The notes under the pieces: generated by a model | What the model saw: only the letters and a program-made list of their open reading frames with translations | The model's database searches: none | What the model was told of the DNA's origin: nothing | Translations under genes and position numbers: made by a program | Part shown: piece by piece, positions 2,934 to 64,000 of the stretch | How positions within the stretch are numbered: the first letter of the stretch is position 1 | Layout of the letters: each line of letters opens with the position of its first letter | Source of the DNA: Chlamydoabsidia padenii | Taxonomy: Eukaryota; Mucoromycota; Mucoromycetes; Mucorales; Cunninghamellaceae | Length of the DNA: 64,000 bases | Reading direction: 5' to 3' | Assembly: GCA_025330725.1 (NCBI GenBank) | Contig: JAIWND010000054.1 | Coordinates: forward strand, 60,661-124,660

Positions 2934-4170
2934 AATAGTTAACCTTCCCCACCCCTTTTTTACTATTATTCCTCTCTTTCTAACATCCCCTACCCCCTAT
3001 TTACCTATCGTTATCCCCTTCAATGACATCCTTTTATCACTTTTGATTCCTATCATCTTATTCTACATTATCCCATTTCTGGGTATCAACCAGTTATTTA
3101 TTGTCGGTTTAAATAAAATTATCTTATTGATTTGTTGATAACGGTGTATGATTGTCTCTTATTACTGTGTGTTTTATGTGATCGACTCTTTTTTTTTTTT
3201 TTTTCTTTGTATATACAGGGCCTTCTCCTTTATCCCTTAATGAACTGTCAATGATAATCCTCATCATGCTAACTTCAAATGTCTCTTGAAACAATAGGAT
3301 AAATTTGCCAAGTCGGTGGATACTCTCTAAAATGACATTATGAGCTCGCTTACAGTAATGATAATCTTCATATTTAATCAATGACACTATCGGTTATCAC
3401 TATTTTCCTTAATATGTTGTGTCTCCTTTTTAGTTTACTGTTTTTGATAAAAGGTCATGTCCTTCATGTCTACGAATAATTCCTCGACAAAGATGACCAG
3501 TCAATCTCCCCTTTTTCCCCCCCTCGCCCACAGGATCGACAGGATCTAACCCATTTTTCATTGCCATCATTTCACAAAAGTCATATCTTGAATAGTATGT
3601 TTGATTCATTGTCCTTTTCGGATATATATCTTAATGTAAGGGGGTCCTTATACAAAAGACACTCTTCATTATGCATACATAACGAGTCGGCGGGGTTTAA
3701 ATTGAAATCCCGACATTGATCCCTCTACCTTTTTTTTTTGTTGTTGTTTGCTTTCTTTTTTGCTGTTTGAAAGTACATTCAGAAGCAGCAAATAATTCAT
3801 GGAACTAGTTGGCTTTAAATTCGTTCATGGTGCTCACTTTTTCATAGTTCTTGTAGAAGAAATTATAAAGTTTCAAAACTGTGTTGAACCTCATCCATGC
3901 AAAAGTAAGATCCCATAACAAACACATAAGCTGCCACTCAAAGATAACAGATTAAAGCCTAGCAATTGAATAGCAATAAGTAATGTGTACATACGCTACA
4001 CATATCCTTTTCTGTAAATATATTCATACTTTCAGTTAAGAGTAATCAGGCACAAGAGACCGTATCAGCATTTCTTCGAAACTTTTTTTTCCTCTCTCGA
4101 TTGATCAAGTCATATCGACTCTCCAGTATTCAAATACATTGTTTGAATATATTGCTGCAAATTCACTAAA
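2934..4170. other. Intergenic region, no gene seen
   Basis: About 1.2 kb between the light-chain gene and the WD40 gene. It is AT-rich with a T run at 3188-3204. I see no convincing exon set. It contains the paired promoter-type motif at 3690-3712. Confidence 0.5.
3690..3712. promoter_or_regulatory. Paired GCGGG-TTTAA motifs, inverted
   Basis: GCGGGGTTTAAATT on the plus strand is immediately followed by TGAAATCCCG, the same motif on the minus strand. Together they form an imperfect palindrome about 460 bp upstream of the WD40 gene. It is one of many copies of the motif in the window's intergenic DNA. Function is inferred only from position and recurrence. Confidence 0.5.
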
Positions 4171-4277
4171 ATGCACTATCGAATGGGACTCTCTACGATG
4201 ACGGCGATCATCCATGGCAGAATGCAGCCATGTTTAGCTTCCGCCAACTTTGTCGGGATTTCAATGTTGGGGGTATC

Positions 4278-4311
<34 letters not shown>

Positions 4312-61673: not shown

Positions 61674-62082
61674 TCGATACATACACCTTCTCTCCTACTT
61701 GTAGCGCCCTGACTCTATACTGCTCATTACGATTAATACACCCTCCATAGTTGTTAAATCAATCCATTCACCACCTACATAGTGCTCCCTCCATCCATTA
61801 TCACCTTTTATATTGATATAATATATACAACTACACACAATAAAACTTTTTTATTTTATTTTTAAACATCATATCACTTCTATTCTACATCATGCTACCT
61901 TCTGACTGCCGGGTGTCAATGAGCCGCCCGCCAGTCATGTGAAAGTAAAAAGTAGAAGAATGGCATCAATCAACCTGGGGACAGTAAGACAATAGTGGGA
62001 CAAAAGGGTAGAAGTCCAATTTTTTTATTTCTATTCCTCCCCCCCCCCAAAAAAAGTGTATCTAACTGATAATGTAATCTAA
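61674..62082. other. Convergent intergenic region
   Basis: About 400 bp between ARL1 and riboflavin kinase 3' ends. Contains the AATAAA-type signal near 61840 and a C run near 62040. No gene seen. Confidence 0.5.
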
Positions 62083-62821
62083 TCAAGTTTCTTTGGTAAT
62101 AAATAAAGGGTGGTTTCGTGCATCGTCATAGACTTTTCGTTTTAAGGAATGCTTGGCCACTTCAACATCGGTTCGAATATCACAGATAAGAGCATCTAAA
62201 GATAAAAGGTGTAAGGGGGGGGGGAATTATGATTAGATAATATTCCCCAGTTATAAATCATTTAGTCCATGTTTTATTAGTTACCTAGTGAAGGATAGTT
62301 TTGTTCAGGACGCACATAACCCATTACAATGACGCGCATTGGGCTTCCATAAAAGTCTTCGGGGAAGTCATTCAAGATGTGCACCTCCTACAAGGGTATA
62401 AAAAGAACACACAACGAAAAGGTCAGTATTATCCCCCCCCCTCCTATTTAGTTTATCCTGTTTTTTACCGCTGATCTTTTTTCGTTCTTGTAGTAAGGGT
62501 TCCAGCCGAGACTCATTACCATTGGGTAAACCGTAGACTTCACTTCACCTACTTGAGCCCAACCATAATAGACACCAATATCCAGACCTTTATACATTTG
62601 TTCAAGTGCTTCTTCATTAAGATTGGCTATAGATGAGGTTTAGTTGGTTAGTTTAGGCGGTAAATCTTTATTCTATTTTTCTTACCTGTTGGGATACCCA
62701 ATTCTTTCGAGCCTCTTCCAAAACCTTTTACAACAGTACCAGAGATGGTAAAAGGATAAGGATCAGTAGGAATTTCGGGACCTACAATGAGAGGGCGATC
62801 AGGATTAATTTGTTGTGACAT
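62083..62821 (-). CDS. FMN1: Riboflavin kinase (FMN synthesis)
   Basis: Phosphorylates riboflavin to FMN with ATP. Four exons, 62686-62821, 62469-62626, 62285-62387 and 62083-62195, give 169 residues, the usual size of the monofunctional eukaryotic enzyme. Signature features: GTVVKGFGRGSKELGIPTAN, where the GIPTAN motif binds Mg-ATP; GVYYGWAQV; PMVMSLGWNPYYKNEKRS; EVHILNDFPEDFYGSPMRVI, including the catalytic Glu of EVHIL; and GYVRPEQNYPSLDALICDI. Two motif copies lie 73-125 bp upstream. Confidence 0.95.
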
Positions 62822-64000
62822 TTGAGTTGGATATAAAGTTGGGAAGAAAAGAAGAAAAGAACAGAACCAGACCGAAAGAAAGTTTATAATCGATTTTAAA
62901 TCCCGCAAAGGGTTTGTCAGCGTCCCCCTCAATATCAAAATCCCGCCGAGTCTTGATCAGGTCAGCACATCTGGCATGAATTAACCGAGATGCAAAACAT
63001 AGTTAATGACCTGTTGATTGTATTCATAAAGTTAGATTAGCAATTTTGAAACGATATACCTAACCATTCATATCAGTCAGGGCAATGTCGATAATTGAAC
63101 ATGATTGACCCATCCACTCTTTTCTACATTATCCCTTTTTCAAGTCGAATATCATGTCCAAATGCGCACATTATTGAATAACGTATTAATAAGTAAATAT
63201 ATAATGTATATCATGACTTTATTATAATGATTACAATACCCCTCCTACACAAAGAATATACTATTATATACTAATCTAATCTACACCTAGTGATAAAGTC
63301 GACCACTATTCTTTTTTTGGGAGGAGGGGTACCAAATTATCATCCATTATTCCATCTTGTCAACTTTATCTTGTCTAATTGTTTGTCTTGTAACGCAAAC
63401 CATCATAGAATCAAATAATCATAGTTCAGTTACTGTTTTCGTGCCCATTACGCCATGTTGCACTTTAGATACCCATAGTCGATCTTCTTGATTTATCCAA
63501 GATTACGCCATCCATTGTCGTCAAAGTCACTTGTTGATAGTTACCTTTATAACGATGCATTGTTAGGATTTATCTTGTACACCGCCAAAGAAGGATAATC
63601 AAGTTTTGTTGTCAGAGCCACCAAAGTTACCCTTCAAGTATGCTGAAAGAAAAGAGTCAGCAATTGTAAGCATCATTTAAGGTATAACAGGTTAAAAAGT
63701 CAAGGAGATTGTTGCACTCCATTCATCAAGTAGGTTTCCCGGCTCCATCCATCCACAGTATTAGTTTTGTTATCAGCATCAGGCATTCGTCATTCATTGT
63801 CACCCGGCATGTTGTTAGTAGTTTCACCATGATGTAGAAGTAGCAGATATTTTAAGGCAAAGGTCTTATGTTTGGTGATTTTGAGAAGTGGCAACCATTA
63901 GTTTGTAGAAGGTAGTCGTATTGAATTAGCCAGAAGGAAGAGAAGAGAGATGTCAAGTTGAAGAAGAGTCAGGATCAAGAGGAGTAGTTAGGTCAAGTGT
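62822..64000. other. Terminal gene-free region
   Basis: About 1.2 kb beyond the FMN1 start. No protein family or long frame recognised; no tRNA seen. Any gene starting here would extend beyond the window. Confidence 0.4.
62894..62946. promoter_or_regulatory. Two TTTAAATCCCGC-type motifs upstream of FMN1
   Basis: GATTTTAAATCCCGC (62892-62906) and TCAAAATCCCGCC (62935-62947), both on the same strand and in FMN1 sense as GCGGGATTTTAAA / GGCGGGATTTTGA, about 41 bp apart. Confidence 0.5.

Follow-up and report, generated by a model that had tools for sequence, protein, structure and literature searches.

What kind of element is the short word, a GC-rich part joined to TTTGAA or TTTAAA, that recurs throughout the intergenic DNA of a 64-kb stretch of the genome of the mould Chlamydoabsidia padenii (Cunninghamellaceae, Mucorales)? 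The stretch, hereafter the window, is C50:60661-124660 of the 34,228,448-bp assembly, and an annotation made from its letters (the original prediction) had proposed that the word is a composite of an E2F site or cell cycle-dependent element (CDE) with a cell cycle genes homology region (CHR). In silico analysis confirmed the observation, which proved larger than first noted, and pointed to another role: the word is probably recognised by a single abundant, sequence-specific protein, by which the majority of promoters in this mould would be marked in the manner of a general regulatory factor.

A rigid and abundant intergenic word

In the window GCGGGATTTRAA is present in 8 exact copies where 0.02 are expected (expected counts in the window are from 100 dinucleotide shuffles), and in 47 copies with at most two mismatches, as compared to 10.2 expected and a highest shuffle of 21. 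Genome-wide, 1,253 + 1,277 (2,530) copies of the exact 12-mer were counted on the two strands, and 2,547 + 2,555 (5,102) of the 11-mer CGGGATTTRAA, as against 0 + 0 and 2 + 3 (5), respectively, for the same patterns reversed, which served as control. Both orientations occur, and 26 of the 27 positions originally listed are no more than 4 bp away from a copy with up to two mismatches, the exception being 44492.

Further counts were made in a 264-kb sample comprising the window and 200 kb of a second contig (C1:100001-300000). Gene models were obtained with a small gene-finding hidden Markov model trained on this sample (115 genes, 439 introns, GTAAGT/TAG splice sites), and start codons, coding sequences and introns are throughout predictions of this gene finder, which was checked against one protein, the predicted MAD3 model being 100% identical over 552 aa to the database protein Mad3/BUB1 of C. 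padenii. All 27 listed positions are intergenic by these models, in line with the original placement of the copies outside coding exons. In the sample CGGGATTT occurs 77 times (5.2 expected) and is the top-ranked 8-mer once simple repeats are set aside, and it also ranks first in 91 kb of intergenic DNA with simple repeats masked (66 versus 3.15 expected). A stored profile of the word, used for the histone, density and window scans and trained on the same 264 kb, thus partly on the window itself, gave 65 hits in the window, of which 60 are intergenic, 4 lie in coding sequence and 1 in an intron; eight random order-3 windows gave 3-15.

The consensus derived from anchored and trained profiles is [G/T]CGGGATTT[G>A>C]AA[A/T], and core positions four to six tolerate the variants CGGGG, CGGA and CGGGAATT. 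The base preceding CGG is T in 41% of profile sites, and the fourth position of the AT half prefers G over A (0.54 versus 0.27 in the trained profile). CGGGA followed by TTTRAA with a gap of 0 was found in 52 copies in the 264 kb as compared to 0.2 expected, while each gap of 1-15 bp gave 0-3 copies for 0.2-0.3 expected. The parts alone were near expectation over all DNA, non-promoter DNA included (observed/expected: TTTGAA 407/364, TTTAAA 426/381), as were GCGGGAAA (5/4.3) and TTTSSCGC (16/15.1); GCGGGA reached 75/43, with full sites counted in, and GCGCGAAA 3/0.9. Because only the zero gap is strongly enriched and the halves alone are near expectation, the element behaves as a single rigid word rather than as two joined halves. 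The flanks of 47 copies, compared by eye over 60 bp on either side, are unrelated, so that the word is not a dispersed repeat, an origin that had been left as an alternative in the original prediction.

Placement before start codons

In the 264 kb the exact core CGGGATTTNAA is present 63 times, with 56 copies intergenic, 5 in coding sequence and 2 in introns, and 21 of the 56 intergenic sites are located 40-200 bp upstream of an ATG (p 0.00015 versus random intergenic positions). Profile density upstream of the ATG is highest, at 9.2 per kb, in a preferred zone of 80-140 bp, and amounts to 2.9 at 40-80 bp, 2.2 at 140-260 bp and 0.49 at 0-40 bp; it is 0.18 in coding sequence, 0.24 in introns and 0.23 in the first 150 bp past the stop codon, all close to the background of 0.11 in random sequence. 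Held-out tests consisted of a four-fold cross-validation over 103 genes, together with the histone loci described below, a site being called in the cross-validation at a profile score of at least 10 between -260 and -40 relative to the predicted ATG. Such a site was found in 74 of the 103 predicted genes (approximately 72%), as compared to 5.4% of shuffled promoters, 33% at -480 to -260 and 24% at -700 to -480, and the median distance to the ATG was 120 bp. The promoter enrichment that the original prediction had left to be checked is thus present, with a preferred distance to the start codon. Of the 27 listed positions, 14 fall 40-260 bp upstream of a predicted start codon, although two of them, 23551 and 44492, adjoin predicted coding sequences of less than 300 bp. 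Within the window, 18 of 24 genes reach a profile score of 10.

Orientation is free, as 34 of the 74 site-bearing genes carry the site along the gene and 40 against it, and the split is 17 to 20 in tandem promoters, that is, among genes lacking a divergent neighbour. A poly(A/T) tract of at least 8 nucleotides is located 20-55 bp ATG-ward of the site in 23 of 74 promoters, the permuted mean being 13.1 with 0 of 2,000 permutations as high; the ATG-ward tracts are T on the strand of the gene in 19 cases and A in 5, and 12 of 74 promoters have a tract on the opposite side of the site. No common Pfam theme emerged among 20 exon pieces from 23 near-site genes, 9 of which had any match, nor among 10 of the 37 site-less genes, 5 of which had any match, although the 37 were selected by a simple pattern and include genes with profile sites.

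Exact-core density is 0.80 per kb in divergent intergenic regions. A separate concentration was observed at C1:170000-179000 (L022), where eight exact-core sites occur in a gene-poor stretch of approximately 8 kb surrounding a Myb-repeat protein gene.

Retention in histone promoters

Three paralogous histone clusters (contigs C3, C31 and C78), which lie outside the profile training, have largely diverged in their intergenic DNA, as established by alignment. A site scoring at least 10 at -260 to -40 was found in 11 of 12 histone gene-sides, and 10 of the 12 gave a shuffle p of at most 0.02, with 200 shuffles for each side; by profile, no site falls within this interval on the H2A side of C3. 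All three H4 promoters retain a site, 116-146 bp before the ATG. The histone sites all point along the gene (11 of 11), unlike those of the 74 sampled genes, which show no orientation bias. The histone regions examined represent 10 of 18 matches, and the histone match on a further contig, C56 (L064), showed no site by exact or variant pattern, the profile not having been applied there. These data support the conclusion that the word is conserved between diverged paralogous promoters.

The E2F, DP, MCM and histone genes occur as close paralogous pairs or triplets on different contigs (L009/L010, L013/L014, L035/L039, L058-L063), which suggests a large-scale or whole-genome duplication.

Candidate readers of the word

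The interpretation of the word as an E2F/CDE plus CHR composite holds in so far as a promoter-linked, background-enriched element is present, and is not supported by spacing, targets and half-site counts. Under this interpretation the word would be a site for E2F/DP (at the CDE) and LIN54 (at the CHR) within a fungal DREAM-like complex, and the strings GCGGGA and TTTRAA do match CDE and CHR, the CHR-type string standing beside the GC-rich part in 52 copies. The search for E2F/DP domains proposed at the outset returned six E2F_TDP domains in the genome, of which three resemble E2F and three DP in sequence, and the one E2F and one DP compared have the recognition segments of human E2F4 and DP2. 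The word is present in core histone promoters, as it is in most sampled genes, and a hybrid E2F/LIN-54 motif is known in C. elegans from the relevant part of PMC3093354. The spacing scan, however, led us to reject a composite of two separate sites, only gap 0 being strongly enriched and neither half alone, and the animal CDE and CHR are four base pairs apart in the portion of PMC5550918 concerned with spacing, as compared to 2 between GCGG and TTTRAA here, the original prediction having been right that the animal gap is longer. A site in roughly 70% of sampled genes likewise argues against it. So do the tested targets, for which regions were taken upstream of domain matches, with ATGs unmapped: exact-core sites were found in 2 of 17 kinesin regions versus 39 of 103 sampled genes (p 0.051, lower than baseline), the kinesin set being the 17 of 144 matches that start at profile position 1, and in 3 of 6 MCM loci versus 47 of 103 (p 1.0), one MCM gene (L036) lying inside the C1 sample and hence also in the baseline. 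With the looser profile and 730-bp regions the figures were 13 of 17 for kinesin, 91 of 103 for the baseline and 4 of 6 for the MCM loci. A cell-cycle regulon was therefore rejected, as kinesin and MCM regions are not enriched for the word. Genome profile searches gave no TCR (LIN54) or DIRP (LIN9) match, a weak negative since no positive control responded. Taken together, we consider the composite highly improbable.

Binding by E2F/DP alone, with a shifted flank preference and greatly widened targets following loss of Rb, is somewhat less remote and still improbable. The three E2F-like and three DP-like domains, the reported loss of Rb and retention of E2F in zygomycetes (as given in part of PMC4862756), the site in histone promoters, and the profile sites found at 4 of 6 E2F/DP loci, no more than 1,500 bp upstream of the domain, are in its favour. 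The recognition segments are nevertheless canonical, being identical to human E2F4 and DP2 in 1cf7 in the one E2F and one DP compared; the T before CGG in 41% of sites breaks the GCG core of E2F; canonical TTTSSCGC is at background; and GCGGGA is followed by TT rather than AA. MCM regions show ACGCGW instead: these ACGCGT/A boxes, a word of the fungal MBF class, lie upstream of 3 of 6 MCM domains (L036, L039, L040) versus 8 of 103 sampled genes (p 0.013), which suggests that replication genes are under MBF-like control. Five KilA-N matches are present in the genome.

The strongest of the rivals, albeit an unlikely one, is an ordinary activator (zinc cluster, Myb or other) whose regulon is very wide and which plays no special part in chromatin opening. 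Any promoter-proximal activator would account for the positional and sequence data, and CGG is a typical core of zinc-cluster sites; the near-universality of the word, its sites in convergent regions and the T-tract fit a chromatin organiser better, though none of these is decisive. The zero-spaced GC-rich and AT-rich halves also resemble a TFIIB recognition element plus TATA box, and a core promoter element in which a TFIIB-type GC box is fused to a TATA-like TTTRAAW would agree with the one-directional histone sites (11 of 11). It is at odds with the free orientation (34 versus 40 genes, and 17 versus 20 in tandem promoters), with the preference for G over A at the fourth AT position, with TATAWA standing at no fixed place relative to the site, and with the separate TATA-like stretch closer to the ATG seen by eye in several histone promoters, and we regard it as very improbable. 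An origin in a tRNA B-box or short interspersed element, considered because TTYAAATCCCGC resembles a tRNA T-arm, was rejected, as flanks are unrelated and only 2 tRNAs are present in the window. Little probability is likewise left for a repeat-borne, methylation-linked or replication-linked word, with which sites away from promoters would agree; copies of a repeat would be expected to share flanks, which these do not. The GATT inside the word does fit the VATB adenine-methylation context of Phycomyces, yet VATB is far shorter than the word, and in the portion of PMC11258239 that describes them the methylated clusters of Phycomyces lie downstream of the transcription start, whereas the word is seldom found in the last 40 bp upstream of the ATG.

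A proposed site like those of general regulatory factors

The rigid word, its two orientations, its preferred distance and its conservation would all be explained by a single abundant factor, which is why a general-regulatory-factor-like site is favoured. Such a factor would bind [G/T]CGGGATTT[G/A]AA[A/T] at most promoters and, acting like Reb1, Abf1 and Rap1 of yeast, would keep a nucleosome-free promoter region open, with transcription presumably starting between site and gene. The sites are promoter-proximal, occur in both orientations and before unrelated genes, and have a poly(dA:dT) neighbour more often than permuted sites (23 of 74 versus 13.1); such a neighbour is frequent but not defining for sites of this type, and T-tracts are often found next to factor sites in yeast promoters. 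The assignment is a likeness in position, orientation and range of genes to a class that is defined by nucleosome depletion.

Several observations weigh against this role. Sites are not confined to promoters, as profile density is 2.6 (2.63) per kb 150-400 bp past the stop codon and 2.2 in other intergenic DNA, and the exact core is about as dense in convergent regions (8 sites in 15.6 kb, 0.51 per kb) as in tandem ones (0.54 per kb), although missed genes may account for some of the non-promoter sites. The general regulatory factors of yeast cover smaller shares of genes, and a share of approximately 70% would be out of the ordinary for a single factor. The genome-wide share of site-bearing genes may also be somewhat below 72%, since the 11-mer is about 1.3-fold denser in the 264-kb sample (52 copies) than across the genome as a whole (5,102 copies in 34.2 Mb), and the ATGs come from our own gene finder, for which one protein was checked. 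Finally, the nucleosome-free regions of Hemiascomycota owe their shape both to widely acting factors and to poly(dA:dT), in a complementary and at times alternative manner, to judge from the part of PMC2897762 devoted to them, so that the T-tract is no proof of class.

A further and more tentative proposal, to which we give rather less than even weight, is that one factor, through a single word of 11-14 bp, is responsible for opening the majority of Pol II promoters in the Cunninghamellaceae or in Mucorales at large, perhaps along with some tRNA genes. Among the top-ranked matches in the open-licence PMC literature, no description of a near-universal, orientation-free promoter code was found for any fungus. 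Promoter marking in early-diverging fungi is poorly known, and a word present at most promoters offers a handle with which to fish out its factor, could locate promoters in Mucorales genomes that lack transcript data, could serve short synthetic promoters in industrial moulds, and raises the question of how general regulatory factors came to be replaced outside Dikarya. It also cautions that words of GC plus TTTGAA are not to be taken as evidence of E2F/DREAM control.

Sites and neighbouring features of the window

Table 1. Selected sites of the word in the 64-kb window (positions within the window; distances are to predicted start codons, whose strand is given in brackets).
Positions	Strand	Context	Profile score	Remark
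3690..3713	.	Two sites face to face (GCGGGGTTTAAA / TCGGGATTTCAA)		24-bp imperfect palindrome
4253..4266	+	126 bp before ATG 4385(+)	15.3	
9318..9331	-	~318 bp before ATG 9002(-)	17.7	
11608..11621	+	~80-90 bp before ATG 11530(-)		TCGGAATTTCAATT; absent from the original prediction
14889..14902	-	~210 bp before ATG 14682(-)		Gene HSP70-like by eye
17681..17694	+	Intergenic	18.2	
18005..18018	-	~130 bp before ATG 18137(+)		
21530..21543	-	Intergenic, no predicted ATG close by	18.1	
22109..22122	+	Intergenic, no predicted ATG close by	16.8	
22640..22653	+	45 bp before tRNA-Phe gene (22523-22595, minus)		
25604..25617	+	~80-90 bp before ATG 25526(-)		Absent from the original prediction
26884..26897	-	~100-110 bp before ATG 26786(-)		Absent from the original prediction
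27328..27341	+	132 bp before ATG 27466(+)		Myb-like domain gene
31665..31678	+	~152 bp before ATG 31513(-)		Putative PX gene (label of the original prediction)
34344..34357	+	992 bp before ATG 33358(-)		Exact copy
35888..35901	-	79 bp before ATG 35974(+)		
37029..37042	+	Convergent (3'-3') intergenic region		Exact copy
38967..38980	+	92 bp before ATG 38881(-)		Exact copy
43602..43615	+	~307 bp before ATG 43295(-)	18.9	
44461..44474	-	Intergenic		Exact copy
50902..50915	-	118 bp before ATG 50791(-)		Exact copy; SPT5
51095..51108	+	155 bp before ATG 51256(+)		Exact copy
52768..52781	+	Region convergent by our gene models		
54965..54978	+	133 bp before ATG 54838(-)		Exact copy; MAD3
60558..60571	-	Common to divergent genes 60390(-) and 60689(+)		
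62893..62906	-	79 bp before ATG 62821(-)		Exact copy; riboflavin kinase
62933..62946	-	Riboflavin kinase promoter	12.8	Second, weaker site

A second, weaker intergenic word, TTCATGCA / GCATGAAT, was noted in the window and C1:100001-300000, with TGCATGAA present 27 times as compared to 4.3 expected and TTCATGC at a density of 0.52 per kb in intergenic DNA versus 0.12 per kb in coding sequence. Both tRNA genes of the window are followed by GCGGAGTGTAAAWT some 26-28 bp past the tRNA, at 22483-22496 (-) and 40759-40772 (+), the sole tRNA gene of the C1 stretch (tRNA-Thr) has GCGGAGTTGGA at a similar place downstream, and TTTATATA lies upstream of all three; these words are a possible Pol III flank signal, seen at three genes only. 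The Rfam scan returned only the two tRNAs at gathering scores. A 74-nt inverted repeat, 91% complementary, is located at 20878-20951 and 34251-34324, its second copy ending 20 bp away from the exact copy at 34344, and it had no Rfam match.

Comparison with known systems

With the yeast Reb1 site, CGGGTAA, the word has in common CGGG and a promoter-proximal placement, the right-hand part being different here. The hybrid E2F/DP-LIN-54 motif of the DRM complex of C. elegans, as presented in part of PMC3093354, also places a CHR-like TTTRAA after a GC-rich half that resembles an E2F site; here, by contrast, the gap after GCGGGA is fixed at zero, the halves are not enriched alone, LIN54 and LIN9 gave no match (a weak negative) and the tested cell-cycle genes are not enriched. 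With the animal CDE-CHR pair, in so far as it is covered by the pertinent portion of PMC5550918, the word has GGCGG-like and TTTGAA strings in common, the gap being four in animals and two here. The sites of Abf1, Reb1 and Cbf1 and the CACGAC word of Candida, according to the passages of PMC2897762 on Hemiascomycota, are likewise short promoter words bound by widely acting factors, and the word in use changes by clade through factor turnover, Cbf1 having been replaced by Reb1; C. padenii differs in that another word, in another clade, stands before approximately 70% of the sampled genes.

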